Shown piece after piece: positions 20,344 to 57,500 of a stretch of 64,000 bases of DNA (position 1 is its first letter; every line of letters starts with the position of its first letter). The notes below the pieces were generated by a model. It ran no database searches, was not told where the DNA came from, and saw only the letters and a program-made list of their open reading frames with translations. Source of the stretch: Owenia fusiformis (taxonomy: Eukaryota; Annelida; Polychaeta; Sabellida; Oweniidae); contig CAIIXF020000011.1 in the NCBI GenBank assembly GCA_903813345.2, positions 26,342,166 to 26,406,165 on the forward strand, read 5' to 3'. Both the position numbers and the translations under genes were made by a program.

Positions 20344-20443
20344 ATGAGAGTTCTCTATGTATATGTGACTTTGCTGCTTATATTCTGTGCTATTCATCTA
20401 ACTGAAGCGAATTCTCATTTTAGAAAGCACAATGAAACAAAAT
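20344..20443 (+). other. Orphan copy 1 of the cupredoxin signal-peptide exon
   Basis: A 100-bp open segment starts ATG and encodes MRVLYVYVTLLLIFC.. ending ..HNETK, followed by a consensus T|GTGAGT donor. Length, phase and sequence match exon 1 of the gene at 35968. About 700 bp of upstream sequence is shared too. I found no downstream cupredoxin exon before 38232, so it is either an alternative first exon with a very long intron or the remains of a duplicated gene. Confidence 0.8.
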
Positions 20444-20994: not shown

Positions 20995-21094
20995 ATGAGA
21001 GTTCTCTATGTATATGTGACTTTGCTGCTTATATCCTGTGCTTTTCATCTAACTGAAGCGAATTCTCATTTTAGAAAGCACAATGAAACCAAAT
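20995..21094 (+). other. Orphan copy 2 of the cupredoxin signal-peptide exon
   Basis: A second 100-bp copy, 651 bp after the first, encodes MRVLYVYVTLLLISC.. with the same length, phase and T|GTGAGT donor. It could join exon 2 at 38232 in frame. Frame and donor are intact, which argues against old decay. Confidence 0.8.
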
Positions 21095-26483: not shown

Positions 26484-29400
26484 TTAAGTGTATACGTTTG
26501 TTAGATATCGCTGACGGCACGTATATTGTTGCATGACTATACATGCAATATCTTTTAGACACTCAAGTGTTTGTTCGTTTGTAAAATGCCATTCTTCCGT
26601 ACCAATGCCAAGGAGGTTTTTAACATTCATTTGGATATCCCATTCATAACAATGAGTATTAAGTTGTTCTCTGAATATGACATATTCATTTGAAGGGCAT
26701 TTAAGTAAAAAATGCTCCACATCTTCTTTTTCGTAGGTGTCACACAATAAACATGACAGTGATTTATTCTCGCTACCCCTATATTTGGAGTTAAGCGAAT
26801 GTTCATCCATAAGTAGTTTCACCATTATTTTGCACCCATTAAAAGCAACAGGAAAACGTCTTGCAACATTTCACCATATAACTGGCCTCAGTACCTCGAA
26901 ATTACCCATTCTAAAATAGCCTAGTCCATTGTACATGATCGATTTAAAGAATGTCGCTTGCATTTGAACCTTTGTTATTTGAGTGAACACAATGTTCTTC
27001 CACCTACTTTTGGGAATAATAGTGTTACAGTATAGCATATTTAAAATATGGTTATTCAAGTTGTATTTTCGTGATGTTTGTAGCATGCGCTCGATTGGCG
27101 AAAAAGTACAACTTCCCCTATTAATATGCAACATTTTTACAAATCTTGTGATGAACAGACATTTATATATGTTTGCGCTAGGGAGTTGCAATAAACTCCA
27201 AAGAAACATCATCCTTAGGAAGGCAATATAATATTCAACATCTATGAGGCCGATGGGTAAAGTCGAAACGGGGATACTAGCTGAGTGAGGTAGAGACTGG
27301 ATTCTACGCCCTATTTCTCTCTGTGTTTTCTCTAAAACATCTATGTCTTTCTGTTGGTAGTTAATAATTTGAGCACCGTATGTCATTGTAGGAATGGAGT
27401 ACGTTTTGTATATTTGACATGCGGATGTTGGGACTAGGCCTCCACAACCACTTCCAATACCGAGAAGCGCATTGTATTGTAATTTGCCCTTCTTGCATTT
27501 ATCTTGTACATAATCAGAGATATTGTTATTTGTTGAAATTGGAATTCCAACATGTTTTACATAGTCAGATTTTACGATTGATTTGCCTCCGATCTTAAGT
27601 TTCTGAGTGGCACCTAATTCAATTTTGCTATTAAAGACAAGAAATAAACATTTATCTGGATGGACTTCATATCGCCACTGATTACTGTGCGCATAGAGTT
27701 GATCTAGTAGTGATTGCATATTTTCGAAGGAGTTGGATAAGATGCACATATCATCAGCATATGCTGGACTTACACAGCTCAAGGAGCCTACATTGGCTCC
27801 CTTGTTACCTTTAATCATGGAATCGATTATATCAGCCATGTAGAGTTGGTAGAAGAGCATGGACAAGACACCGCCTTGATGTACACCTTGTAAAACTGGA
27901 AACAAGTCAGAACATTTCCCACCCACCAAAACTGAACAACAATAGCGTTTGTACAACATGTATAAAATTTTCCATATTATACCTTGAATTCCACAGTTAT
28001 AGAGTTTGACGAGAAGACCATCTATCCATACGGAATCAAAGGCTTTTCGGATATCTGTTACTGTTACCACAACCATTTTACCCTGTTCTACATTTTCAGA
28101 AATAGTTTCTTGTACAAGAAGTGATGTATGAATGGACGAGCATTTTTCGACTGCTGCCCCTTGTAATTTTGGAATAGCTTTTAGAACAGGTGCCTTTATT
28201 TGGACTAAAATAATATTGTCAAACAATTTCCGTAGCATTGTCATCAGCGTGATACCCCTAGAGTTGTCCTTAACGAGTGGATCTTTACCATTTTTTACGA
28301 GAGGAATCATTGTACCAATACAGAAGTTATTTGGAATATATGCTGACTGGAGTATTATATTGTAGATAATCGCAATTGTTTGGACCATGTCAACCCCTCC
28401 GAATTTCAAATGTTCCGCGCTGATTTGATCATAACCACATGCACGCTTAGAATTCAGAGCTTTTATTGCATTAAGGACCATATCAGTAGTGATTGTGAAA
28501 GCTGTACTGTCAACTGATATACTATTGAAAATCTTCTGAACTTTATTTTCAACTTCGACTTTAAAATCCTTATTAAACGTAGGTTTATCTAATGGGGTTG
28601 CAAGTTTTTCGAAATGATATTTCCACTGTTCTCTGATCTCATTTGCGTCAGTAATCAGATGACCATCATCAGCGAGTATTGGATTTACAGATTTCTTTGA
28701 TGATCTACGGTGTTTGTTAACCAGATACCAATAAAAACGTTGATCAGAATGTTCAGATTTATACAATTTTTCAAGTTCATCCTTTTCGTATTCTAATTGT
28801 GCAGCTTGATAAGCTTTAGAAAATATTTTCTTGGATTCTTTATATTCGATTCGCACCGGATCTGTAACATCGCGGGGTCTTCCCTGAGATACCCATGTGT
28901 GCCATTTTGTCTTTTTGTCTTTAGCCAAAGACGTTAACGTGGGGTTCCAGAAAGGCTTCACATATTTTAGGAATTTCTTCTTTGGTATATGATTGTTTGA
29001 CGACAACAATAAACTGTCAATTAGTTTATTAATAAAGAGGTCGATTTCTGCTTCATTTAAAGACCGATTAGAAAGAATAGCATTCAATTCAATTAAAATC
29101 TCATTACATTTTATTGAGACAGAGTTTGTGTAAGACTCATTGATTTCATCAATTGTAAGTTTATCCCATGAAAAACCTCTTGGAGCTTGAATATCAGGAC
29201 ATCGTTCGATCTGAGTATTTAAATTTAATGCTGTATGAATGGGAAGATGATCCGATGTGTTATCTGGTTCATCCTCAGAGATAGAACATGATACGACAGT
29301 GTTGCACAGAGAGTATGATATAATTACATGGTCAATATAACTAACATGGAGGACGTTGTTTCTAGCCATTTCAAAAGTGTGTTTTGGACCAGTTGTCAGG

Positions 29401-30128
29401 TCTGTCATGTCGACAGCGGTTAAGATATTTCTTTGCATAAACTCATATAACTTATATCCATTACTAGAGGGGGTGCCATGACCTCTGCACCCCGTAAGTT
29501 GACCTAGATTACTATTTACATCACCAAGAATAACCACACTACCATCCACTAAGGCTTCTTGGACAAAACGTTCTAGCAAGAAAAGAACATCGTCAAACAC
29601 ATCAATTTCACAATTTTGCTGAGGTAAGTAGACTGAAAATACATAAATGGGTGAGTTTACTACTACTGATATCTTTAAACAAACAATCCTGTCTGTTGTC
29701 ATCTTTTTAACAGGGATGACATAGTTACTTAACTCATTTCGCCAGAATATAGCAACACCACCGTTTCCCCAAACTTTACCACAGTTATAATCATTTAAGG
29801 AATCACTGCTAGTACTATAGCAACTAAAATCAGGATGGGCTGAATCGAGCTTAAACCTATTACAAGGATACAGCTTATGCTCTGAGAGAGCCAATATATC
29901 ACAATTTGACAGTAAATGTCTGATGTATATAGAAGATGCATTAAATCCTCTACAATTCCACTGTGTGAATCTTAAGTCGCTATTTAAATGCTGAGTTAAG
30001 GATGATTGAGCATTCATATTTGGTGGGACAAAATTGATATGGGCAAGAAAATTGCACAGCAGAAAACACAGATAAGTTGGTTTCATGAGATCCATTTTAA
30101 ACAGCAAAATGACGCTCATCATCGTCAA
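26484..30128 (-). pseudogene. LINE ORF2: APE endonuclease and reverse transcriptase, one in-frame stop
   Basis: The frame has 1215 codons with one TGA at 26871-26873 before the last 128 codons. The N-terminal endonuclease shows QWNCRG, SEHKL, GDVNSN and SDHLPI, so its catalytic residues look intact. The reverse transcriptase shows VTDIRKAFDSVW, GVHQGGVLS and AYADDM. The tail contains C..C..H..C (LLCDTYEKEDVEHFLLKCP), a zinc-binding-like motif common at LINE ORF2 ends. It performs target-primed reverse transcription of the element. Confidence 0.88.
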
Positions 30129-31029
30129 TAGTTTCGCCCCAGTTACTACGATTATAGTAGTCTACATAACGGCGGCCTGATTCGTATTTATCATAAGAAC
30201 GCCCGTGTTTGTAATCAATTATGGGTCTCTCTTTGAAAGGATTATCCCGCTGGCTGTTGAAATTGGAGCGTTGATTCGATCGACGCTGCCATAATCGGCA
30301 CCCGATTTCAGAGTCCGGCCAAAAATTGGTTGAAAGAATGGCCTCTGTTTGACATTCAGGGATATTTAGTTTGCACCCGACTTTATCGTCGCAAACACGA
30401 TTGTGTACGATTTCAGCTTTCATTATTCGTATTCCCTTATCCTCGGCATGACTAACAATCGCAGAACGGATTTCATCGTCTGTAACGTCTGGGTCTTTGC
30501 GGATATTACTTACATATACAAGTTTAAAATTCACTTCTTTGACACCCGTCAATTTAATGCGTTAATTCAATTCGTTGACCCTTTGGCTTAGACAGACGAT
30601 TCTTGTATCGATCTCTATTGCTCGAGTCGTTTCAGACTGATCGGTACCCAATGGTCTATCAGATGATATTTCTGGGAGAAAACTTGTCGTAGAGATTGTC
30701 TGTCTCGGAAAAGTGTCCGAAATGTTAGATCCGTACATAAATAGATCGCAAATATCGTTTAATGAAGAAACATCTTTATTCGCACCCTTCCGTACTTTCA
30801 GTGTAAGGATTGGGATCTCGCCTTGCTTGCGTCCAGCAATGGGGCCGAATTTGTCCAAGTAAATGTTGAAAAGTCTCTCTTTCGCATTTCCAAAGTATAA
30901 TACTCGCAGTGGTTCATAATCCTCGGGGGTCGTTACTTCCATAAATTCATTGATAATGGTATCCCTGTCCTCCTCTGATAATCTGGACAGAATTCGCTCG
31001 ATTAGATCCGTGTCAGGCGGAGCTGCCAT
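30097..31029 (-). pseudogene. LINE ORF1 with one in-frame stop
   Basis: A single 311-codon frame is interrupted by one TAA at 30562-30564. The N-terminal 155 residues start MAAPPDTDLIERIL. The second half (VNFKLVYVSNI.. to ..NFWPDSEIGCRLW) resembles the RRM-like ORF1 proteins of animal LINEs that bind the element RNA. A charged Arg/Tyr-rich tail follows. Confidence 0.7.
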
Positions 31030-34984: not shown

Positions 34985-36110
34985 TATATATGTATATTAA
35001 ATTGCAGCTAATTATGCAAAACCTCGGCAATTAGCTAATTCAAATCGATTGTAATTGTGTATATTAGAAATAAATTGATAACATGAAAAAAAAAAATTGA
35101 AGTGCATGCATTTTATTTGATTTTCAACACAAAACGCTATAATCATAAAAACAGGATACATGTGGAGTTACATTCACAATATAAAATTTATTTCTTTTTC
35201 ATCTTTACAGCGCTATTATCAAATAAAAACGCTATCTGTGTATACAAATCTGACGCTAAACTATGAATAAAGAGTTAAAGATGTTCAATATTTGAATAGA
35301 ACAGACAATGTTGTTTTTACTTAAAAATTTATCACTTTAATTTCATAACTACTTACACAATAAGCATACACTCTCGTTCAATATGGAAACCTGTTTCGGC
35401 CTTTTTATATTTGCATCATTTCCCCAAGACCTGCACTGAAAACAAATATTTTAAATCTTTATTAATTACTCTAAAGGTTTTAATAATGTATTCACAGAGT
35501 CGGTTTATGTTAGGTAGAAGGAATCATGATTCTAATTTAAACAGACAAAAATAGAAATTGGTGCATCATTGCAAATTGAATAATGATTTTGCTAGTGAAG
35601 TTTGACAAGTAAGCTTCAGTTAATCCTTCCAAAAACAAGAATCAAAACCACATTTCAAAATCATAGAAATGAACCGGTGTTAAGGGGTAGGAGGTCTGTA
35701 TCAAATTATGGTCCTACTCTTCATTGATTTATATGGTGACCCCTTTTCCTTATTATCTTAGACACAATTAGGGCCAGAAAGGGCCGTTAAGAAAGGGGAC
35801 CATAATCCCCGGGGAACCATAATTTCTTTCGAGCGTTAAACGTTCGAAACAGTGTCTCCAAAAGTATGATAGGTAGTGTTGTGTTTTCAACAGTTAAGAA
35901 TATAAAATCATTCAGTCGCGGAGAGCTGAGCTTAGATAGACGACTTGTTCTGAATAGTCATTATAAGATGAGAGTTCTCTATGTATATGTGACGTTGCAG
36001 CTTATATTCTGTGGTATTCATCTAACCGAAAGTCACCTACATTATAGAAAGCACAATGAAACCAACTGTGAGTAAAAACAGATTACCAGATTTAAAAAAC
36101 TGAAACAAGG
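34985..36110 (+). repeat. Duplicated 5' region of the cupredoxin gene (pairs with 18650-20450)
   Basis: This copy of the duplicated upstream sequence leads directly into the full 9-exon gene. It shows the uninterrupted target site (ttcataactac near 35344) of the MITE present in the other copy. Confidence 0.8.
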
Positions 36111-39100
36111 TAAGTTAAAATTGGAAAATCCAAAAAGATGGACTAACGTCAATCAAAATCATTTTTAAATTCAATTTATCATGTATTTTATCCGATACAG
36201 AGATATGACAAGGACATATTGTGACATGTGTAGGTTCTACGTTATGCTTCATCTCTTATAATGTACCATATGTGTAGCTTAAACCTCTGTCAAATGATTT
36301 GAAAAATATTGTAAATGTAGTTAAAGGTGCAACAATTAGGGTAGATGGTCCATTCAACGATCATGGACCAGTGTCAAAATATATCTAAGTTTGGATATGA
36401 AGACTAACATATATTTTTATTATCTCGAAAGAAACCCCTGAACATCATTCAGCTGAAACGTGGTGGAACTTAAAAAGCTATAAGTGGGACTTCCTTTATA
36501 GACGCTTTTTCTTAATGCTGAAATTGATACATGTAGTTTATTGTATTGTATTGTATTGTAAAATTTTATTAAAGTGTCATGGGTTATATAATAAATACAT
36601 GTATAAAATAATTACATCATATATAAAATATCACCAAAATATACAATTATACAATTAACCCCAGACCGATAACGGCCTATAGGACACTGGGGACATTACC
36701 TAAACAGGTGATGTTCCCTAATCTTCAGCATTTGGCCACAGGCTTTTGCCACATATATAAAAATCCTATCATCAGACATCAATGTATTGAATTTATCATT
36801 GAGTTTATCAATATATTTTAAGAAAATGGTTATGCCAAAGAAAATGTTAGCCACATGTTGCCCTGATAGCACAGAAGTATAAATTTTCGAATTTCTCTCT
36901 ACAGGCCTTGTTGCCCCTTTAATTCTATATTCGGGAAAATTAGCAGATGGCAGTCACAACAGTCTTGTTTGATATTGTCAGCATAGATGAAAAGACACAA
37001 AATCAACCTAAAGCAAACACGAATCAATGCTTCGGATTTTCTGAATTCTTGAAAAATCACACATCGTGAACAATCATGAACATTGCAAGATGCATACTTT
37101 TCTTTCTCTGGAATGTAATGTTTATCACTAAAATGGTTATGTCTGTGTCAAATATCTTTGGTTAAAATGAATAGTATGAAGTGAGAAAGTTGGCATGTCG
37201 TAAAAATGAAGGTCTGTCTTGCATGTGTCAGTGTTTTAATCTACCCAGCCCCCACCACCCCCCAAGGGATTAAAGGATTAAAAAATCAGAAAAATGTTTG
37301 AAAATTAATAATAATACATTTACACATTATATGTTTACACAGTTTGGTATTATGGAAAATATTACTTCCTGCGAAAGCTATTTGGATTTTGATATAATAG
37401 CTTTCCCACGGAGCATTTGGACAGCTGAAAGATTGTGACCTTTGAAATCGAATTAAGTCGATCCGCGGCTTACTTTTGGTCTCTAACTGTGTCTTACATC
37501 AGTATCATCAATCCGTGTAAGTATTAGAGCGCTGAAATACTTCTTTTTTTCGATCAATACTTGTAAATTGTTCATCGAGTGGATGTTTTTTAGACCTATT
37601 TCCAATATGGCGGTTTGCTAGGAGCGAGATACGCAACGAACGAAATGAATTTTGAGAATTAGTTAGGTTCGGACAACCTCCGGAGATTTACGAAAATGTC
37701 CGAGCAGACAACGCCATATTGGAATTTGGCAGTAAAAACATTAACTCGACTAACAATTACAAGTCTTAGCTTGATAGAAAAGGAAGTACTTCAGCGCTCC
37801 AATACTTACACGGATTGATGATACTAATGTAAGACACAGTTAGAGACCAAAAGTAAGCCGCGGATCGACTTAATTCGATTTCAAAGGTCACAATCTTTCA
37901 GCTGTCCAAATGCTCCGTTTGAGAGCCATAAGTTTCAAAATCTAACATGGCTCTCGAAGTGAGTAAGGAAAATACCATTTGGCAAAAATATAAACACTTA
38001 TTGTTTAAAATATTAAGCTTGTAGGAAAATACATTAATAAACTCAATCAATGTTGACAAACCGAATGATAATACCTTAGCATCGGTGCATAATAGCTAAA
38101 ACATTTTATTCTTCTGTACGTCCATAGGCAATATAATGAGTTGAAACATTAGCGGAAAGTAAGGGATCGATAGCAACGAAGAATATGCCTAAGGTTGCAG
38201 TCGCTAAATCGACATTGTATTTTTATTTCAGTGTGTTCGTCTGTAAGAGGTGATTCAACGGTGACTTGGAGCTACAGGAGTGATGGAAAGAAAGAATATG
38301 AGGCACTGTGTGTTAGTCAAGGTGATACAACCACCTATTCTATATCACCTAAATACCACTAACATTGAGATTGTGTTGTCATTAGTTTGTATTGTCAGTT
38401 TAATCGGAACGCTACATACGAATATGTTCGTGATGTTGCATATGAGCTTTCAATAAAATAAGTCTGCAATATATATTTTGCAAAACATATATCTTATTTA
38501 ATGTCGAATTGCTCTATCATTGAACATTGTGTTGAACAATGATGAACCGCAACTCAAATAGATACGAGTCATTTGTGTACATACACATTTATTAATTCAT
38601 CTGTTATTATTGATTTGTTTTATATTATTAAGGCTCAACGATTACATTCGAGTTTTCGTCTGGCCATAACGTTGACAAACTACCAGACGAGACTGCGTAT
38701 GATGGGTGTGATACGACAAATGGCAATTTCGAGGAAAGCCCCAAAGTGTATACAATGAGCAGCCTCAAGACATATTATTTTGCATGTGGCATTTACTCGC
38801 ATTGTGAAATAGGTGGTATGCGAATCAAGATACATGTTGTTCCAGGTATAATTCCCATTCTTAAAAACACCAAGCCCGCCATAGTAAGGCCTGTTTGCTT
38901 TTTCTGATCTTCTAATGCCTCAAATATAAAGTATTTTCATGACAAACGTTTGTCTAGCTATACGCCTCTGTGACCCTACCCCCTCTACTTGACTACACAC
39001 CTTATCACTTTTGTGGTAGGGGAGGGGGGGAGTCACAAGGGATTGAAGCTAGACTAGACCAAAGCACTCATCTTTTAATCTCTGAGTGAGCCAAGGTCCC

Positions 39101-42075
39101 TATAACTTGGACAGAACACTTGACTGATTAACATTATCGTAGAATATCTTAAGAATAATTTCACCGTTAAATAGTCAATGAGAAATGGGTTTTAATTAAT
39201 TTTCATACAATCAACCTTGGGCTGTAGAAGTTGTGACAACGGAGGAAACTATGACGGGTAAGTCCACACTTTTCTACACAACCTCGGGGAAAGCATAAGA
39301 ACAAATTCAAAGCGATGGAAATTGAAACCTAAATCTGAAAACTTTGGTAAATCTGATTCTGCCTTCAATCCCTACAGCACAAGCTTGTATCTATTGTTTT
39401 AGATCAAACAGATGTTATGACAACAACTCCTATCACAACACAGAAGCCCATGATGAAAAGTTAGTAGATTGATTCGACGATAGTTTGTTTATGCATCCAT
39501 GACGATACAGGTCTTATTCCCTAAACTAAATCTTACGGATGTATCGTCGTTTACTTCATTTAAATCAATTCCCATGGACACAGTTTCAATGAAATCGAAT
39601 GATCGTTGCTTAACACTCCAGTAATGAATTTCGATTGTAATTCTGTTTCTGAAATTTCAACTTGTTAGAGATATCATTTCAACGCATGTCGTTTGTTTGA
39701 GCTCAATATAATTAGTAATATTTTCAAATACGTACTAGGTTATCAACCACCCGAGAAATGCCCAGATGAGATTAGAACATGTGTGATTGATCCATGTGAC
39801 AAAAGGGTTCGGCCTGACTGCCCTGCTTGCCCCCGTGCTAAATGTGTGTAAGTCATCTATTCTCTTTGTAAACCTACAATCATTAGTAAACCTGATTCCT
39901 TATCGATTATATCGAACGATTTGATGCGATCCTTCATTACTATAAAATGGCATTTGTAAACCGCAGAAAAAAAGCTTCCTTTAAGACACGGTCCATGAGG
40001 TGTTTGTGTTGCTAATATTACTTGGTAATAAAAACTACAGTAAATAAAATGAAAATTAAGTTCCTTATATTTACTGCTTGGATCCACTATAAAAGTAGGA
40101 CCGATATTTGTGGATTTTCAGCTTTGGAAAATCTTGGAAAAAATATTAATATGTTTTAACATTTTTAACCGACTATTTAATTACTATATATTAATTATTC
40201 CCCAATCATTGCATTTTTGCTCTTTATCATGTAGCTCCGATTATTGTCCTAACTGCTGGGATCCGCTGTTCAAATTAGGGAAGAAGAGATATGTTGACTG
40301 TGGCAGAGTCGGTAAGTAACATACATTATCTAACAGATGATTGTTTTCTATGGATCGTTTAACTCCAGTCGATTCCTATTGTAGAAATGCAGCCAATAGC
40401 GTTCATGTGCAATGTAATGCAATGTTGCGTTCACAATAGCTAAATCGAGTAAATCTAAAATAGTAAATTGAGCTTACTTAATAGATTCCTTTAAACAAGA
40501 AAATAAAAACCTCTTCGTGAGGTTGACTGTCAAAAGTATTCTCCCCGATTGTACCCCGATCTGTGGTATAGCTTACATATACTCGTACATGCATACTGGT
40601 CAATAATGGTGAAAGATATCATATGGTATATTTGATGGCGCTTTGAAGCGGATTGCAAAGCGGCACCAAACAAAGCGTGACAAAGCTTGATTAAAGCGTC
40701 AGGGTCTTAATAGGTCGTTGAAAAGCTCGGAGTAAAGCGGGACATTCGGCAAGAGCGCCAAACAATTTTAAACTGTTTAAAAAAATTTGGGCGCTCTGTT
40801 ACGAATTGATTATCGCCGAGAGCGTATCAAAGCTTAACAAACAGTAAGAAAGCTCAGCAAAGCTTGACTCAAAGCGTAGGAAAGCTTATAACAGAGCTTG
40901 GTTCAAAGCGGGGACCCCAGTCTCTCACGGTCTGTTACCACTTGACACGCTTCGTTAAGATGTCTCAAAATTTGCTACGATCTGGCTTGAAGATCTGACA
41001 CGAGGTCAGACGCTTTCGTCAATATTTGACACTCTTTGTTACCCTTTTACGAAAGACTCTCAAGCTTTCCAACGAATTGATCAAAGATTGACACTCTTTG
41101 TTATGCTTTGTTACACTTGACAAGCTTCCTTTCGCTCTCCCACGCTCTTTCACGCAGGGCGACAAACATATCATGTCTTCTTCAGAGAGATCATGCTCTA
41201 TAGTCCATATGGATCTTCTGGATCTAAGCTTGTTGTTCTGCCATCGTGTTCTGGAGTCAAAGGTGTAGTGATTTTATGGATCTACTGCATCTTTATATAG
41301 TCATTCGATCAAAAGCGGCATGAAATCGGCGATCTCGACATTTTCCAATGCATAACAGAGCTAAACAGAGCGTAACAATGCACAACAGAGCTTAATAATC
41401 GTACCAGAGCCTGATTTAAAGCGTCATAATCGCATCGAAGCGTAATTCAATAAAGCTTATCAAAGCGTGATTTCAAGCGTAACAAAGCCTGATCAAAGGG
41501 GGATCAAAGCGCGAGGAACCGATACAAGTCGGGAAATCAGAGCGTAATATTACAATAGGTGATCGTGATATTTTTGGAAAAGTTCACAAAAATGACGGCT
41601 CTTGCTCGCCGATTTAAAGCGTGGCATTCGCCGTTAGTGTGAACTAGGTGTTAAAGACTTTATGTGAAAAACATTTTAAATAAAAAAACATCATTCTTAG
41701 CAGAATAAAACATTAAAGAAAATATTAGGATTGAACTTGCTTATGCTTTAAAATCTCATGTAGAGTGTGATGATCCTGAAGATTGCAAAGTGGACCCCTG
41801 TAGCATTGTAAAGAAGCCTAAGAAGGGCCAGTGCGTGTAAGTAATTCCAATTAACTCTTAAAATATGTTGCCTGTTAGAATCCCTTCATATTATTTAAAA
41901 TATCAATGTATTTTTGAAGAAAGTCCATCATAAATATATGCATAACTAATCTATTCGACATCATTTCAACAGATCTAACAACTGCGGTGGATGCAAGGCA
42001 GTGTGTTACAATAAGAAGTGTAGGAAGGTGAAATGCAAGAAACTTAAAATGAAGACCACACCAACGATGCCCTGA
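35968..42075 (+). CDS. Secreted phytocyanin-like cupredoxin with Cys-rich tail (9 exons, 283 aa)
   Basis: Exons: 35968-36067, 38232-38321, 38633-38845, 39228-39257, 39403-39459, 39739-39847, 40235-40311, 41764-41836 and 41973-42075. They total 852 nt in one open frame with good GT..AG borders (e.g. T|GTGAGT, G|GTAAGT). Residues 1-22 form a signal peptide (MRVLYVYVTLQLIF..). Residues 34-134 are a cupredoxin domain: the HNV motif, then YDGC, then YYFACG, SHC and GGM. This matches the phytocyanin order, with His, Cys, His and Met as type-1 copper ligands and the YDGC and SHC cysteines as the likely disulfide. A short Thr-rich linker (exons 4-5) follows. Two Cys-rich modules (exons 6-7 and 8-9) share C..DPC..C(V)S..C..C spacing and the same internal phase 2. 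There is no membrane anchor. Electron transfer or copper binding outside the cell is inferred. Ephrins are also cupredoxins but have no copper ligands. Confidence 0.85.
36538..37147 (-). mobile_element. Probable truncated retroposon 3' end
   Basis: A TATTG pentamer run at 36538-36565 reads as a CAATA-type tail on the minus strand. Upstream on that strand, an open stretch (36899-37147) encodes HYIPEKEKYASC..HDCSRC and then a Cys-rich hydrophobic part. I do not recognise the family. It lies in intron 1 of the cupredoxin gene. Confidence 0.4.
37380..37950. mobile_element. Fold-back element in cupredoxin intron 1
   Basis: The left arm (ggagcatttggacagctgaa.. to ..gcgctgaaatacttc, about 37410-37545) is matched inverted at about 37785-37917. 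Similarity continues weakly outward. The arms hold no coding sequence. Confidence 0.82.
40630..41640. repeat. Array of degenerate AAAGCGT/AAAGCTT words in intron 7
   Basis: Roughly thirty copies by eye of (c)aaagc(g/t)t(g/a)a lie between 40640 and 41630, often 10-20 bp apart. They are in plus orientation at 40640-40920, complement orientation at about 40950-41150, then plus again at 41350-41630. No gene is seen. The block might be the subterminal repeats of a DNA transposon or an independent word-array. Confidence 0.6.
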
Positions 42076-42114: not shown

Positions 42115-42120
42115 AATAAA
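42115..42120 (+). other. Polyadenylation signal of the cupredoxin gene
   Basis: AATAAA lies 40 bp after the TGA stop at 42073-42075, the expected place for the 3' end signal of this gene. Confidence 0.6.
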
Positions 42121-44215: not shown

Positions 44216-45392
44216 TGGATGAACATTGACAGGTCCCCTATGAACTGTACTTGACCTGATTGTTGACCATTACATGTACCTAAGTACATGTACACTTTTC
44301 ACTTGCTTTTTGATTTACATTAGGTAACTTCACTTGATTCTATTGACAAAATTAAGTCTCACTCACACTGAGTTGGCTTTACATTACTAATTTTTGTCTA
44401 CTGCATAATAAAGTTACAGCTATAACTGTTACCTACTGTTGATTACTGAGTAAGTTAACTGTTAAATAACATTCATATTCATTTAAAGGTAAATCTACCC
44501 TTGACTCTTTACAGGAACTAAAGAGTGTTCTGTTTTGTTTATATTATGTTATTTTACCTCTCAGTACTGTAAGCATTAATGATTTGTGTTTACTGATGTA
44601 GAAAGTTGGACTTCCAGTATTGGGGGGGGGGCACAATGGCACAGACCTGTGAATGGTTATAATACTTTCGCCATGTTTTATGCTTTATCACCTTACATAA
44701 ATCTTAGCACAGATTTCTTTTTGTTACTATTCAACAAGAAACTGAAGTGATTCTTTTCCTTTTGATTGTCAGAATGCTTACTCTACTTATGAGATGGTAC
44801 ACATATTTTCACCACCTTGCTTATTATTCCCGCTTATATTATACATAATAAGCTTTGTTTTGTTCCTGATGCCTAAAGGAAATCAAGCCTTATCTAAGGA
44901 AACAGAAGTTTTTCTGCATTGAGTTATATTCAAACAGTTTTTAATCCAATATATGAATATAGACATGAAATACTGTGACTAATGTTAATAGAAAGCAAGA
45001 ATTATGGTGCTAAAAGGAAATTAGAAGAATAACGTACCTAATATACCTTTTCTAATACCCTGTCTTAGGTTCATTTAAATGCAACATTGTTTGGCTACTG
45101 CTACTGCCAGATATGAAGGTTTTAATCACAATCATAATACTTTTTATTGAGCATTAAACATTCTTATTTGTCAACATCTGTTATATTAGTGAAAGTGACA
45201 TTCTGCCTATGGTATACAATCCCATTTCACTGCACACTTAATTTTTGCTTTATGATCAAAGCAATGCAAGGAGCTCCATATTTGCTTATTGTGGCTTTAA
45301 TATGAACTTTCTCCCTATTTCTCCTACTTCAACTGGCTATATTGTAAGAATGTCCCATACCTTTATGTGTCAAGTTTTTGCTTCAGTGAGGG

Positions 45393-48300
45393 TTGGAATT
45401 GGGTAACGCAGGAATAACCTTACTACTATGGAGGGCTCGAATAGGGATGTTTTGCTGTGGAAACAGGGGCTCTACCTGCAAAAATGATATTTCAGCTCTA
45501 TCTTTACACACAATCGCTGATACATGTAGATCTATGATACATTCAAATTTTTCAATCATGTTCATGTTTATAATTTGGCTTACCCTTTTGAAGCCTTACT
45601 TCAATAACTTATTCCTGATAGTATTGTTTATAAGCCATTTACCGTTTACCACCTGCCTTGTCCCAGGTGCCGTGCTTATCTTTCTGTATGGCAATACAAA
45701 AAGACTCAATATATATGCATTACTGCAATCTCTCATATGCATATCATCGGTTTTCCTTGTTCCAGGGTCAGGAACATATGCATTTAACCCAACATTATCC
45801 AAACTGTTGTTAATGCTAGCAGGTGACGTTCACCCTAATCCAGGGCAACTACACAATAACGAAATTAATGACTTAAGCTTTATGTTCTCAAATATCAACA
45901 GTATTTTTGCAGATTCTGGTGCACGCTTTGAAGACTTAAAACAACGAGCCTTTGACCTAAAACCTGGGGTAATAGCTTTATGTGAAGCTGGAAATTTTAT
46001 TAATAAACCAACAGATTTTGACCTTCGTCTGGGTAACTTTAAACATCCAGTCTTCTCTAATCTTGGTCGAGGACTTGCAATCTATGTTCATGATGACGTT
46101 CCATCCAAGCCTCTTAGTCCAGACCTGTACATAAAAGATCTTGATATTCTTTTCACAGAATTAACATGTGATCATAAAAGTATTTTATTTGGGGTCTGCT
46201 ACAGATCCCCCAGTCAGAATGCAGAGGAAACTCGTGCATACTTTAATAGGCTTAACCGTCAGCTTGACATAATTCAAAATAACACAAAAAAGTTTGACCA
46301 CATTTTGCTCATGGGAGACTTAAATGCAAAACATCCCAACTGGTATAAAAATGACAAGAACTTAGCAGGAGAATTATTCCTGGAAACTCTAAATACCAAT
46401 TGTTTTGACCAAATTGTTGACCAACCAACAAGAATAACAAGTACTTCTAGCACATGCATAGATCATATTTTTACAAATTCTTGTGAACAAGTCAAATCCT
46501 GGTCAGTTATTGATCCAATTGGTAGATCTGATCATGGAACACTTCTTGCTTCTTTAAATCTCTCTAAACCTAGGCATCCTCCTATTAGGCGTATAGTCTG
46601 GCAATATGACCGTGCAAACCCTGAAGATCTTAACAATGTTATTAGAAATACCGACTGGCAATCTATTTTGAACTCACAAGATATTGATACATTAACATCT
46701 ACCTTTACGGAAACATTATGGTCAGTTTATAAAGACCAAATTCCAAATAACTTTAAGATTACAAAATCAAATGATCAACCATGGTTCAATGAGAAATTAA
46801 GAGTCGAGTCTATCAAAAAACGATCACTTTATAAACGCTATCAAAAGAACTCAAATCCAATTAATGACCAACTTTACAAAACCCAAGCAGAATTGGTGAC
46901 AGATCTTATTAAGGAAGCAAAACTGCGGCATGAAAATAAAATTTTTGAATCTGTTGAAAAACTCAATAAAAATGACAAAAACTTTTGGAAACTAATTACC
47001 TGTCTAATTGGAAAAGGCAAAGCACATTCAAACATACCAGCACTATTTAATAGCAATGGTGATCCAATGACATCAAATTTTGACAAGGCCACATCATTTT
47101 TAAACTTTTTTGTTGAGAAATATAAAAATGACACTCCACTTAATTACGAACCAATTTTCCCCATGAGAACAAATTCATTCTTGATTTCAATACAAACTAA
47201 TTTTGAAGAGGTCATGAAAATAATTCTAAAACTTGACAGCTCCAAAGCCTGTGGCCCGGATAAAATAACTAATAAAATGCTCTTAATGACTGCACATACA
47301 ATATCTCATCCTTTAGCTGACCTTTTTAACAAGTTACTCAAAAATTGCACTTTCCCGAACTCCTGGAAAATTGGAAATATTTGCCCCATTCACAAAAAAA
47401 ATAATAAATCAGAAATATCGAAATATCGACCCAAATATTACACTTTTGAGCTGTCTGTCAAAAATTTTTGAAACTATTGTCGCTGACAGAATTAAAAACC
47501 ACTTGATTTCAAATGACCTTTTGTTTAAATTTCAATCGGGGTTTCTGCCAGGGCACAGTACTCAGGCGCAGCTAGTCGCCATTGAACATCTTATACAAAC
47601 TAATTTGGATAAAGGAAAGGGAATAAAAGCCCTATTTTTAGACATCGCGTCAGCCTTTGACTGTGTGCCACATAGACTTTTACTCTTAAAAACAAAATCA
47701 TATGGTATAGGTGGCCAAGTTCTCAAAATGTTGAAGTCATATCTAAATGATCGCAGAGTTAGGGTCACAATAGCAGGCACTTCCTCACATTTATCTGAAC
47801 CAAATGCTATAAAAAGCGGTGTCCCACAGGGGTCAATATTAGGCCCCTTGCTTTTCATTTTATTTATTAATGATCTACCGGATGACCTTGACACAGACTG
47901 TTTCATCTATGCTGATGATACCTCAGTATATTTTCCATTTAGTACTCAAAATCCAAAAGAAATTGACGATAAAGTAAATGAATCTATAAGAAAAATTATA
48001 CTTTGGTCTGAAAAATGGAAACTTAGTTTTAAACCCGAGAAAACGAAAGAAATAATATTCCATAAGTCAAAAATTCAATTAACACAGGTAAGTGAAACAG
48101 TCATGAACAATATACCCATTGATCGTGTGAATTCACAGAAACACTTAGGATTTATATTTGACGAGCACTTGACAAATGAAGCACACATCTTGTCAATTCG
48201 AGATAAAGTAAATAAAATGATCAATCCGCTTAAGTCTCTACAACGAAATCTTACATCTAAATCTTTGGAAACTATTTTTGTATCATTCATAAGACCACAT

Positions 48301-48969
48301 TTTGAATATGGTGCCATTATTTTTAACTCTTCGAATAAATACCTTCTCAATATTTTGAACCAATGCTTTTACCAAGCAGCACTTATCTGTAGCGGCTGTA
48401 TTCATGGAAGCAGCACAGAAAAAGTCATTGATACACTTGCATGGACACCTCTTGAGACCAGAAGGGATATGCACATTTTGAGATTTATGTATCGTGTAAA
48501 TCACAATTTATGTCCAAAATACATTACCGATATTTTTGAGCCTTTAAAAATTCAAAATGCAAGAACATTAAGACATAAGATAGACTATAGATTGCCCGCA
48601 AAATGCTCAGATAAACTGAAAAAGTCGCCAGCTTTTAATGCTGCCTCACTGTGGAACAGAGCTCCACAATATCTAAAAGAAAGTCTAAGTCTTCCTATCT
48701 TTAAAAGTCGCCAAAAAAAACTTATCCAAGAATCAAAACCTAAATTTGACCCTACAACCAAACTAAAGCTTACCAGGAACTTAGAAATCGTACTAAACAG
48801 ATTCAGAGTAGATCTGATTTTTAAAGCCCAACTATATGCACACAACTTTACCACTTTAAACACTCCCAACTGTGCATGTGGATTACCTGAAACCCCAAAA
48901 CATGTCTTTTTTAGATGCCCTCAAAATCTTGCAAGCAGAACAATGTTTTTTAATAAAATCTCAATATAG
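45393..48969 (+). pseudogene. LINE ORF2: leader with 2A-like motif, endonuclease, reverse transcriptase; one frameshift
   Basis: The first frame (45393-47471) has a long hydrophobic leader, then LLLMLAGDVHPNPGQ at about residues 137-151, then an APE endonuclease (MGDLNAKHPNW, GRSDHGTL). The reverse transcriptase starts as SSKACGPDKITNKML and continues in the frame 47371-48969 with GFLPGHSTQAQL, LDIASAFDCVPH, SGVPQGSILGPLL and IYADDTSVYF. The frames meet near 47428-47435, where one extra base in an A run after ..KYRP accounts for the shift. The C-terminus CACGLPETPKHVFFRCPQ is zinc-knuckle-like. The true start codon is uncertain. Confidence 0.87.
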
Positions 48970-51570: not shown

Positions 51571-54500
51571 CTATTTGCAAATGACACCAGCAATACTACC
51601 GTTGTTACATAAATTGAAATCCATGTCAAAATCAATATAGTCAACGAGAAGCTCATATTTAGTACAATAGGAATAACCATCATACTGGCCCTGGGCGGCT
51701 ACGAGAGAAAAGTCCAGATCGAAATCACATTTTCCAAGATGCGTTTCATCACCTTTACAATTTACATTGGTTATTAATGGACCGTCTCTGTCAGGATCGT
51801 ACTCGTTGGGAGTGTACTCCATAAAATAAACGGATGCATTCTCATACGGATATCCTAATTGACGACACACCACTTTTGCATCTTTCTCATCCCAACCGGA
51901 TCCACAGACAGGATGCAATGGCCATCCATTTCTCAAATCACGAACCATAACTTCACCCTTAAACTTGGATTCCCTTCCATTTTCTTCTAGTACAATCGGT
52001 AGTTTTCCACAAAAAACACTGGCTCTTAAACCATCTATAACAAATAGTTGTAAATATAAATAAACAAATTTTCTGGAAATTCAAATAAATTATCTTGTTG
52101 TAATATGAAAATAATTTTTTGATATAAAAACAATACTTCCCAGGACACGATATATTATTTCCTTGATTGAAACTACACTCTGCTAGACTACGTTCATCTC
52201 CAGTACAGTTGACATCACTCATTATTATCGTATCACCCCCGAAACATTGAAGAAATGGGAATTCATCAACCGTTGCATCGACTGGGTCGTATCCTGTAAT
52301 TATTCAAAATACAGTATGCAATATTCATGAATCCAAACGATTGGAAAATGAACAACAGAGATTTGCAGAAACATTGACCCCTTTTTAACTCACATTTCCA
52401 TATATCACAGACATTCAGAAACCTCTGCCTCTCTATCGTTCAAAAAATTTACCCAACGTATCGGTCTTTTATTTACAGAGCAATACAGAGAAACCAATGA
52501 GAGTTTGCAAGGGCATCTGGCAGAAAATTGAACCTCAAAGTGTTACCATTCAAAAAGGTATGGATGCCATTAATTAACAGAGATCGATACGTTGGGTACA
52601 GGACGATTCTCGGTTTGGAGAACGAAGTTCATCAATCTAAATGAGCATTATCCCTGCTTCGGACAAATTTGATTTTTTTTACATAATATAGATTTGAATG
52701 TCTTCTTTTGAATAGTTTAAATACTTTAATTTGGGTAATATATCTAGATTTTTCGCAAAAAAATATTAGCGCAGTACACTGATGAACTTCTTTCCCCAAA
52801 TCGAGACTTGTATTTAATTATCGGTCAAATTGAGCATTATCCCTGCTTCAGACCAATTTGTTATTTTTACATCTTGTGGATTTAAATGTCCTCTTTTGAA
52901 TATTCATAGTTTAATTTGGGTAATATTTCTATATTTTCCATGAAAAAAATATTAGCCCAGGAGACTGTTCTCCAAACCGAGAATCGTCCTTTTTTGAAAC
53001 GATAGAGAGGTATGGGTTTCTGACTATAAGAGATATGGATCATTGGTATAAGTTTACAAAGTGAAAAATATCGCAAAAATATAGGTAACATTTTCCCGGA
53101 ATTTCGGATGACTTTGTCAATGTGGAAATTCACAAACCACCGAACACTTTCTCCTGCACTGTAACCTACACATCGATGAAAGACTAACTCTACTTGCAAA
53201 ACTTTCAGAGTTGAATGCAATTGCTTTTTTTCTTGACTCAAATATTCGAGACAAAATTAATTTTATCCTTTAGTTAATGGAATGATAAATTGGAGATTGA
53301 AGAAAATCAAGCTGTGTTGCAGACTACTGCCAACTATGTACAGGGTGACCCAAAAACAGAACCCTCCAAAAATGAAATAATTTCTTTAATACATATGTAA
53401 TCAGCTTCATTTTTCATGTCGAAACTACAATCTATGGATACCAATGTGAGACCAAATTTGTTGCATAGCATTCAATATTTTTCTTGTTATGTCTCTATTG
53501 TAACATCCCTCCCAAGGAGAGCTGGTCGTTTTTTCTCATCGCATATGTAAAATGTTTTTTTTGTGGATGGGGTATCTCACCACATGCTAATTGAATCTCG
53601 TTCAATGTTTCGTGGCTGACAGTGATCGTTTAAGGTATGAGGTTCCATATCCATCCGCCAAAAGGTATGACCCCTATATAGTCCATTTAAAAACTTGTGG
53701 CTTTGTTCTAAATAACACCATAGTTGGCTTCTAGGGTACCTAGTATGCCACTATTTGGTATCAAAATAAAGAAGAGTAGTTCAACTTTCATTAGAATTAC
53801 GAAAATAGCGATGTAGGTCAAAATAATTCCGACGTTATCATGTTTACTACGCGTTTGCCCGTCATCTCAGAATTGAGGAAATGGTAGCAAACGTGAGTTA
53901 CAATACATGGACGCTGATATCTCAAAAAGTAACCTGACTCCCTATAATTTGATGTAGATCAATTGAACCCCTATATGAACAGGTACATTTTGATATATAA
54001 CACTATGGGGGGTAAGCGTTTTATAGTTGATCACGAACGCCGCAAAAGTATAGTTCTGAATTTTCGAATTTGGTGTTGGATTACTGTACTCATACCATAA
54101 TCAAGGAAGTGGTACAGCATGTTTTGTGACCTTATATTATTTTATTATGACATCACAGTTGCCAATTATAGCATGCATGACATCACATCACAAATATGGC
54201 ATTGGTCTAATTGAAAAATACTTGATTAACAGGCATGACTGACAACTTTTAAATCAGTTTGATACCCTGTAATGCTCTTTAAATGTCAACTTTTTCCAGC
54301 TCTACAATGTGTCGTACTCTTGCTCCATTTTCCCTGTTGTCATGTTGCTATGGTAACCAGATACATATCTTGCTGGTAAAATTTATTGCTTATTTTTGCA
54401 TAAATGAAACTACTATATATGAGGTGGTTGTAGCCAAATATGAATAAAGTATTAAGATTTTTAGTGCAAACGGTTCGAAACTTTTGGATCAACCCTAGAA

Positions 54501-57500
54501 TAGTGTTTTTTCAGTGTACACCATAAACTACACAATATGTCCCCAGTTATATGCTCAACATGTCTAAATGATCTTTTAATGTCCACGATTCAGCTTAGCT
54601 GCGACACTATGTAATACATTGGTTGAAGTTGATGTTTTATGTACATAAAATACTGCTTGTTAATTAATACTAATTACCCAACTGTCTGCATACAACTTGA
54701 GCTTCACTTCTGGTCCAAGTATCTCCGCCACATATAGTGTGCTCTTTTTTGTCATGATTGTATTCGCTATTCACTACAACGATGCCATCGTTTCTCCTAC
54801 TGATGTCATCCAAATCATATCCAAGTGCCCCAGGCTGCAGATATTCGTGTAATCCTGAATATATGTTAAAGCTTGAAAAGTACTTTTGATAAACGTGTGT
54901 GAAACACTTCTGAAATTGAGATAAAAAATCTATAGGGGAATCTGAATAAGAATGATAAAAAGATAATAAGGGTAAATACCTGGATTGTGATCAAAGCAAG
55001 TGACACCCAAATCATAGTTATATTTATCAGTGCAGTTGGTCTCATAAATTCTACAAACGTCTAACTTTTCACCACGATTACAGCTAATCCGCACTGCTGT
55101 AGCACGCGTGGCCATTCCAAAATAATTCGACTTGTAATGTCTTGCATATTGTCCCGGGCGTTCGATATCGTCACAAATCGCTTGAGCCTCCATCGTATAA
55201 AACCCAACACCAATAAAACGCCCACATACTTTTTTCCATTCATTTTTATGCCATATTTCTACACGCCCTGAATAATTGTCAGGGCCTCCTACCAAGCGTG
55301 CCTTTGTTGATTTATCCGTACATCCTATATTCACACCGTCTTGTACCGATCTGCATGTATTTTCAACACTTCCAATAGATACAATTTTCCACTCCATAAA
55401 AGTACATTCATTTAGGTTTGTCTCTTGCCCTGTACAATTCATGTCTGTGACTATGACTCTGTCAGGCCGATGGTTTAGAGTTTTTCCAAAGTTTTGCCCA
55501 TTTTCTGGATTAAATCCGAGTTGTCTGCATGCCACCATTGCACCACCATCATTCCAGTTACTGTTACACATAGGTAGCCATTTATCTTCAACCTGTACGG
55601 CCATTTCCCCATGATCTGTTCGGTACAGCCGTACGCTCAATTTACTTAGCACTACAATAACAAAAATTAAAAGATATAAACAGGATCCATTCTTTGCGAA
55701 ATTAAAATACCACAGACCACTCAGAAGCAATCACTAGGTGACAAATTCTGTCGTTCTGACAAATTCATGCCTCAATTCATATACCTTCTCCATGGTGAAA
55801 CCTATAGATACTGTTGACAACATCGTCAGATCTATGTTGTCTATTTTAAAATTGTATTAACTGTTTACCTGTTTTTTGCGTATCTGGGCAGGTCAGCAAC
55901 CTTAACGTTCCCGTTCTTGAACGGCATATTGTGAGAAATGGGTGGTGCATGGTGCTGGCTGGTGCACACTGGGATAATGTTTCTTCGTGACCCTGACATA
56001 GAGTTCCATCTTTATACCATTCATCATGACCGTCAACAGTTGAATATGTCAATATCACATCTGCATAACGCCATTCCAAGCCAAGATATCTACAAGCCAC
56101 CATCAATGTGGGTGTGGTCCAGCCTTCCAGACACACCCGCCTCCAACCATCAAGAAAGATATAAAGTTCCCCGGTGTAAGAATTAGTCTTATGTTTCAGT
56201 TTCAGTGGAGTCATACATGTGACATAGACAGGATATGTGCCCACTCCACGATGGAGGGTTTCTCCCCATTTCTTGTGATCACAAGCCAACATATTGTTTT
56301 CATTACCAGAGCAAAATACGTCGAGAAACCAAATCAAAGTGGTATGCCTTTTTCTATCACGATTAATTTCGAATGCATATTCTTTTGCTTCAAATCCCAA
56401 TTGTTGACAAGCGACTTTAGCAACTCTGTTTATTTCTGGCCGACTGTCGTATTTACTTCGGACTGACACACCACCCCATACACCAAACCTCTTCATCTCC
56501 AACGTGCCAGAATAATTTGTGCCTCCAGAAAGTCGCAGTTCTGGGACAGCATCTGAAATCAAATGGTCCAGATTACTCGATTATATAGCAAATGATACGA
56601 GTAAATATGCCATACTGACCTGCGGTATATGGTATTTATCGTATGATCTGTAAAATGAAGCCTTCTGATTGGTCAGTTCTTGTGCTGTACCAATCTGTAT
56701 TGCTACTGAGATTGTCCCCGTTGATCATCTCCGTCGTAATACAGAAAATATTGGTACGGAAGGGACAATCTCAGTAGCAATACAGAGGATCACACGATAA
56801 AAACGTTATTGAATGATTTGAAGTGCAATACAGGATATATTCTGTCTCGATATTCTGTATTGGCACTCGACTTCGTCTCGTTATCCATAGTCGTGTTCTT
56901 GTAGGTTTTTATCTGTGCCGACTGTCGATTTGGTCAAAAAGTCACTCATTAGCTTAACGAACTAAGCTCGTTATTTAATGCGTATAATGTTTTCCTCATA
57001 GTGTGCATTTGAGTGTAACACATAGTTCATAAAGCAACATTAAACAAGGCAGGTACCGCTGGTGTATGTTACCCCCTATCACACCAAACTAGTTCTCTCA
57101 CCGTTCTTTCCAGTCTTGCAAAAACTCGTAAAACGGGGTAAATCCGGCTGTGATTGGAAAATGTCTAAAGTAATTAGTTACTTCGTTACTTCGATAACCA
57201 CATATATTTGCATCTTACCTTTGGGTTCTTTGTTATAGCACTTCAGGCTGGCATATTGGTTGATTGCGCAAGATTCATTAGTATTCTTGTTGTTATCAAT
57301 GATACAATAGCCATCGGCACAAGACCAAGATACCCACCATGTTTTATTTTTCTTGGCTGGCCCAAAATATTGATCACCAAATACAAACGGGTTTTCAGAT
57401 TTGATACCCAACAGATCACAGAAATATTTAGCAGCTCTCTGGTCTAGCATGGTAGAATAACAAACAGATCTCCATTTGTACTGTATCTTGATTTCCAACT

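Follow-up and report, generated by a model that had tools for sequence, protein, structure and literature searches.

A probable secreted blue copper protein of the phytocyanin type encoded in the genome of the annelid Owenia fusiformis

Blue copper proteins with a single domain have their best-known representatives among the electron carriers of plants and bacteria. What is the significance of a gene in a polychaete whose product carries the copper ligands of a plant phytocyanin in the phytocyanin order: is it genuinely an animal gene, would its product bind copper, and where did it come from? These questions are raised by a stretch of 64,000 nucleotides from Owenia fusiformis (GenBank assembly GCA_903813345.2, contig CAIIXF020000011.1, positions 26,342,166 to 26,406,165 of the forward strand), referred to as the window and numbered from its first letter, in which a gene at 35968-42075 (+) had been singled out from the sequence as encoding an animal secreted protein with a type-1 copper domain (the original prediction). 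The computational analysis described here indicates that the known family has a genuine, if divergent, branch in animals and that the product is probably a secreted blue copper protein.

The gene consists of nine exons, all on the + strand, separated by eight GT-AG introns with agreeing entry phases (0, 1, 1, 1, 1, 1, 2, 1 and 2), and its spliced form comprises 852 bases, or 283 codons, with a TGA ending at 42075; an AATAAA polyadenylation-signal-like hexamer lies downstream of the stop (42115-42120, +). Exon 2 (38232-38321) encodes the N-terminal part of the cupredoxin domain and exon 3 (38633-38845) the copper-ligand part of a phytocyanin-type domain (PF02298). The five motifs HNV, YDGC, YYFAC, SHC and GGM begin at residues 75, 86, 111, 119 and 124, and the phytocyanin order claimed for them is thus borne out; they had been assigned to the joint product of exons 2 and 3, and in fact all lie within exon 3. 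Alignment to solved phytocyanins predicts as copper ligands His75 of HNV (codon 38665-38667), Cys115 as the thiolate (38785-38787), His120 as the second histidine, its codon adjoining that of the disulfide partner Cys121 (together 38800-38805), and, six residues past His120, Met126 as the axial ligand (38818-38820). Cys89 (38707-38709), the predicted structural disulfide cysteine on the other side, was placed by profile alignment and family comparison.

Is this likeness more than a string of short motifs? In the hidden Markov model search of cupredoxin families that the original prediction had suggested, the spliced protein matched PF02298 above the cut-off (25.3 versus 20.8 bits; E 1.5e-5), the sole Pfam family at E<=1. 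A six-frame search of the whole genome with the same model (498 Mb, 525 contigs) returned at least four matches at E<=0.001, namely the window exon (27.9 bits), its tandem copy and two on contig C4, the count being a lower bound because only the best seven candidates were scored; the model found no match in 14 named control genomes, and the other cupredoxin models, PF13473 and PF00127, none in the worm genome. A loose ligand pattern matched once in the window and in none of 300 Markov-simulated windows. Chance resemblance is ruled out by the PF02298 score over its cut-off, the genome search and the simulated windows taken together. NCBIfam gave no family for the spliced protein and PHROGs none for the window domain, while other members of the worm family matched three PHROGs families, each through a single member (best 0.011, a plastocyanin family).

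The closest solved structures tell a similar story. Among PDB chains, the spliced protein found cucumber stellacyanin (3.5e-6), mavicyanin (0.0015), umecyanin (0.0044) and plantacyanin (0.3), and a profile built from seven worm members gave five matches at E<=1, plant phytocyanins only: stellacyanin (6.1e-14), mavicyanin (4.6e-10), umecyanin (5.1e-9), plantacyanin (5e-4) and cucumber basic protein (8.4e-4). The His, Cys and His ligand columns of the worm profile align with those of the solved plant proteins, the axial residue aligning only across a one-residue gap, and Cys89 and Cys121 align with their structural disulfide pair, so that the claim of four type-1 ligand residues with their flanking cysteines stands. 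Exon 2 forms part of the domain, as the alignment of the C4 relative to plantacyanin, starting at residue 10, indicates. Two other identities were considered and rejected. An ephrin is contradicted by the copper ligands and by the lack of any PF00812 match at E<=1 in all seven family members scanned; a separate ephrin match lies on C6 near 19.6 Mb. A multicopper oxidase is contradicted by a single cupredoxin stretch in 283 residues and by the lack of any oxidase family in Pfam at E<=1.

Could the gene be a pseudogene, an artefact of assembly or contamination? A tandem copy (copy B), 43 kb downstream, has nine exons in the same phases and an open frame. Over 281 shared codons the two genes differ silently at 27 and by amino acid at 28, and the nonsynonymous and synonymous rates (dN/dS, NG86) are 0.053/0.207 overall, 0.030/0.154 in the cupredoxin exons and 0.021/0.140 in the Cys-rich exons; these low values indicate purifying selection. 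A simple selection reading is, however, opposed by intron 8, which is as similar between the copies as are the exons (96% identity over 128 aligned bases) and thereby marks the window gene and copy B as recent duplicates. What speaks for a pseudogene or artefact is that partial copies occur nearby, including the exon-1 duplicates described next and a third copy further downstream, of which exons 4-9 were found but none of exons 1-3 in a search of almost 14 kb ahead of exon 4, and that the exon-5 donor of copy B is broken (TT rather than GT), so that exon 5 may be skipped in B, albeit with the frame intact. Against this stand the open frame over nine exons, the low dN/dS between two nine-exon copies and, for contamination as well, relatives on five other contigs of the assembly. 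Tested on these grounds, the pseudogene and contamination explanations were rejected, and hardly any credence can be given to this group of alternatives: the window gene is a genuine, intron-bearing animal gene. The introns and signal peptide had been offered earlier as proof of this; the nine-exon structure and its nine-exon copy uphold the first half of that argument, whereas the signal peptide is a prediction from hydropathy.

Duplicates of exon 1 together with its upstream flank were seen at 20344-20441 and 20995-21092, the exon itself being about 85% identical. A second set of exons 2-9 was not found elsewhere in the window; these extra copies would be either alternative first exons or partial duplicates.

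The copper domain proves to be one of at least ten domains, some of them of a Gln type and some with ligands lost. Protein searches for relatives returned 12 places at E<=1, and 10 and 16 places at E<=0.05, with related exons on six contigs (C11, C10, C4, C2, C3 and C6). Ten distinct domain sequences, spanning 18-97% identity, were compared; the comparison excluded an extra C4 copy with an identical protein as well as fragments of genes, several of them interrupted by stops, and took in the C2, C3, C6, C10 and Gln-type C4 members as domain sequences. PF02298 was matched at E<=1 by every one of the seven members scanned (best 6.4e-10). The disulfide cysteines are kept in all ten domains and the full set of four ligands in six, three of which are Met-type (two on C11, one on C4) and three Gln-type (two on C4, one on C2). 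Ligands are lost in the other four, namely C2b (His to Ala), C10 (Cys to Ser, His to Asp), C3 (Cys to Asp, with an axial Ile) and C6 (all four changed). A FastTree tree of about 70 sites puts these four on three branches; the losses were therefore probably repeated, with short sequences limiting the inference. Wherever junctions could be read, an intron precedes the conserved exon-3 Gly at the same place and in phase 1, and the C2 and C4Q members have one additional intron within the domain. In the Met-type C4 relative (C4:16082758-16085946), a long, acidic, Thr-rich repetitive tail follows the copper domain in the same frame.

How closely would the worm site resemble that of the plant proteins? 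The copper loop reads C-x4-H-x5-M/Q in the worm and C-x4-H-x4-M/Q in the five solved plant proteins. Each of the five PDB alignments leaves a single residue of the worm profile unpaired on the way from the second His to the axial Met or Gln, and the axial residue comes six positions after the second His in each of the six full-ligand members, against five in the solved plant proteins, a spacing that is a trait of those five and no formal criterion of the family. Type-1 geometry can therefore not be assumed. A further difference concerns Cys35 (38234-38236) and Cys60 (38309-38311), both encoded by exon 2 and common to the seven domains whose N-terminal part was read; these sequences were cut by hand at the first extra Cys, the invariance of which is thus partly by construction. 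Only plantacyanin among the solved plant proteins aligns far enough for comparison, and it has Ser at the place of the second extra Cys. Cys35 and Cys60 would probably form a second disulfide.

Several observations weigh against the interpretation as a blue copper protein. The main threat is the longer loop itself, since Met or Gln might fail to reach the copper. The four ligand-losing domains suggest that the fold is used, or is decaying, without copper in this same genome. The PDB search with the spliced protein also lists three unrelated chains at E 0.02-0.86, and that with the C4 relative alone, led by mavicyanin at 2e-9 and other phytocyanins, trails off into bacterial pseudoazurins and others from 0.09, a weak tail outside the phytocyanins. 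AlphaFold2, given exon 3 alone as a single sequence without relatives, returned a predicted local distance difference test score (pLDDT) of 37, too low to inform either way; the eight-stranded Greek-key fold of cupredoxins is thus predicted from homology. Finally, the Cys-rich half of the protein matched no Pfam family and no PDB chain at E<=1.

It is conceivable, from the first two of these points, that the domain is now a copper-free module for binding or adhesion, comparable to ephrins or to the early-nodulin-like proteins of plants, with the ligands as remnants. Of the ten domains, four are missing one or more ligands, whereas none has lost the disulfide cysteines; the loop is longer than in any of the solved plant proteins, and the Cys-rich repeats could serve as extracellular interaction modules. 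On the other hand, the window protein, its tandem copy and four more domains that are only 34-44% identical to that of the window retain the full set of ligands, a pattern that would make little sense if copper had no use there, and dN/dS is low. Moreover, the longer loop recurs in all six ligand-complete members, Met- and Gln-type alike, which speaks for a working variant and against decay. A copper-free module thus appears quite improbable. Homology and intact ligands together make copper binding by the window domain likely, as judged from sequence, and the somewhat broader proposition that the window protein is a secreted copper-binding protein would also seem likely, if a little less so.

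What might the whole protein look like? Exon 1 (35968-36067), with which exon 1 of copy B aligns, contains the start codon and a hydrophobic, signal-peptide-like N-terminus (best 11-residue mean hydropathy 1.97, and 2.78 in copy B). Beyond the copper domain, exons 4 (39228-39257) and 5 (39403-39459) encode a Thr-rich linker. Exons 6 (39739-39847) and 7 (40235-40311) encode the first and second halves of one Cys-rich repeat, and exons 8 (41764-41836) and 9 (41973-42075, with the stop codon) those of another, the two being weakly similar (31% over 51 residues, E 0.02). A related Cys-rich half, with counterparts of exons 6-9, lies on C7 (C7:26155075-26157363), where a cupredoxin exon was not seen within the 15 kb inspected, so that the repeat pair and the copper domain look separable. 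The predicted product would accordingly comprise one blue copper domain of the phytocyanin kind, a short, possibly O-glycosylated linker and two Cys-rich repeats, with a single copper ion held via His75, Cys115, His120 and Met126 and with the Cys89-Cys121 disulfide bracing the site as in plant phytocyanins, next to the putative Cys35-Cys60 bond. Gene structure, low dN/dS, homology, ligand residues and the existence of the family are established by the sequence data, and fold, copper binding, secretion and disulfides are what we infer from them, whereas the redox role, the site of action and the anchoring are guesses: the protein may perform extracellular one-electron redox chemistry in mucus or in the tube secretion, with its Cys-rich repeats perhaps anchoring it in the secreted matrix.

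Copper could also be bound merely for storage, buffering or delivery, for instance to a secreted phenol oxidase, and not for electron transfer, an alternative that shares copper binding with the redox role favoured here. A secreted copper carrier would suit the architecture, and a cupredoxin-like protein of Streptomyces has been proposed to load copper into tyrosinase (PMC9395347). No partner enzyme appeared, however, among the eight of the window's 83 frames of at least 80 residues that were scanned, which gave SRCR domains, domains of long interspersed nuclear element (LINE) type or nothing. Sequence cannot separate this function from electron transfer; we regard it as possible, if somewhat doubtful.

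Who is the host? A COX1 search of the assembly gave no match. A homeodomain search found on contig C1 nine Hox-type homeodomains and a posterior-type pair within 0.5 Mb, and another posterior-type one at 56.85 Mb (class names assigned by eye); one of the C1 homeodomains has a KLTGP extension, which we take to be the Lox5 mark of spiralians. Owenia fusiformis is reported to have 11 Hox genes clustered on chromosome 1 save for Post1, which lies further down that chromosome (PMC9977687). By its Hox cluster the host is a spiralian, and hence a bilaterian. For this reason, the worm protein is named phytocyanin-type here and not a plant phytocyanin, phytocyanins being termed plant-specific (PMC3184959, PMC10048054).

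Was the family acquired from a plant or alga through gene transfer, or did it descend from an ancestral animal cupredoxin? All solved proteins matched by the worm profile come from plants; the PDB holds few phytocyanin-family structures from outside plants. Transfer would also fit the inference, in a published survey of ephrin origins, that the copper-binding single-domain cupredoxin was lost early in bilaterians (PMC6485061). Yet the intra-domain intron is constant in position and phase (phase 1) wherever junctions were read (worm members only were compared), ten domains have diverged to 18-97% identity on six contigs, the loop is longer, and cupredoxins that match the same Pfam models are reported from choanoflagellates, sponges and ctenophores (PMC6993872, PMC6485061). 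Nor was a prokaryotic or viral relative confirmed: 20 and 28 stretches of viral contigs fitted patterns from the family alignments, and among prokaryotic contigs 16 fitted that from a family alignment and 358 that from a mavicyanin fragment, none of them confirmed, which is a weak negative because the scans relied on short peptide patterns. Taken together, transfer seems unlikely.

Against which known proteins should the worm family be measured? With plant phytocyanins it shares sequence, ligand residues in the same columns and the structural-disulfide Cys pair, as well as a division into Met-type, Gln-type and ligand-lacking members, rice phytocyanins having been sorted into Met, Gln and key-ligand-lacking classes (PMC3184959). 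Many plant phytocyanins are made with a signal for secretion at the N-terminus and have, behind the domain, a stretch prone to glycosylation (PMC3184959, PMC10048054), to which the signal-peptide-like N-terminus and the Thr-rich linker of the worm protein may correspond. By contrast, the worm protein is animal, has a copper loop one residue longer and an extra N-terminal Cys pair, continues into Cys-rich repeats, shows by eye no hydrophobic tail of the glycosylphosphatidylinositol type and is encoded by nine exons.

Nearer to animals, single-domain cupredoxins with a copper site are known from sponges and ctenophores (PMC6485061), and among choanoflagellates Salpingoeca rosetta is reported to encode a PF02298 protein (PMC6993872). 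These resemble the worm family, going by their descriptions, in their animal or near-animal hosts, their copper site and the Pfam models matched, PF02298 included; they differ in that the present host is a bilaterian. The original prediction had named the copper-less ephrins as the best-known animal relatives. Ephrins indeed lack the ligands, but they are not the sole animal relatives, given the sponge, ctenophore and choanoflagellate proteins already reported, and it is the bilaterian host that is the unexpected part. The ephrin receptor-binding domain (PF00812) is extracellular and, by published analysis, of the same superfamily; it is set apart by its missing copper ligands (PMC6485061) and by the lack of an ephrin match among the worm members mentioned above. 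Molluscan haemocyanin and ascidian tuphoxin also carry a cupredoxin-like domain in a bilaterian protein, but they are tyrosinase-type proteins, and the copper residues of that domain are absent in tuphoxin and in Megathura haemocyanin (PMC9395347); the worm protein matches no enzyme domain and keeps its ligands. The bilaterian cupredoxin domains described in the papers cited here all belong to multidomain proteins, six-domain multicopper oxidases (PMC4890752) being the other example. A search of the open-licence literature, covering titles and the beginnings of abstracts, turned up no description of a bilaterian phytocyanin-type protein; similar sequences may well lie unremarked in public databases.

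Other elements of the window lie around and within the gene. SRCR-type exons on the - strand flank it on both sides, at 2608-4821, 9535-10158 and 12651-12950 on the left and at 51574-57717 and 61418-61753 on the right; all four such frames scanned with Pfam (2942-3778, 4006-4821, 12651-12950 and 51574-52080) gave SRCR, and some stretches of the left-hand block have counterparts of 79-91% identity on the right-hand side, at a distance of about 50 kb. Two LINE-type elements, resembling retrotransposons without long terminal repeats and matching endonuclease and reverse transcriptase, also flank the gene (26874-30161, -; 45390-48966, +), the second being split over two overlapping frames. Intron 1 contains a foldback element (37397-37929) with 152-base arms, 95% complementary and 229 bases apart. 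A tandem repeat occupies 5885-8881 (unit about 1.26 kb, about 99% identity); similar pieces, the second of them longer, lie near 25.4, 31.1 and 53.7 kb.

What does the family mean beyond this locus? We would suggest, tentatively and with slightly more doubt than confidence, that this spiralian lineage at least, or bilaterians at large, has retained, as a diversified family, secreted blue copper proteins of the single-domain kind whose site design is their own (C-x4-H-x5-M/Q and a second disulfide); Met, Gln and copper-free members would have evolved in this family independently of those of plants, and it may have an extracellular redox role in worm secretions. That a spiralian has several genes of this family, with ligand-complete members among them, speaks against the early-bilaterian-loss step of the ephrin-origin scenario and suggests that such blue copper proteins were not lost from bilaterians as proposed. 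The worm family thereby provides a bilaterian reference point for the evolution of ephrins, and its single genome brings together, as a natural series, one domain in Met, Gln and ligand-less form.

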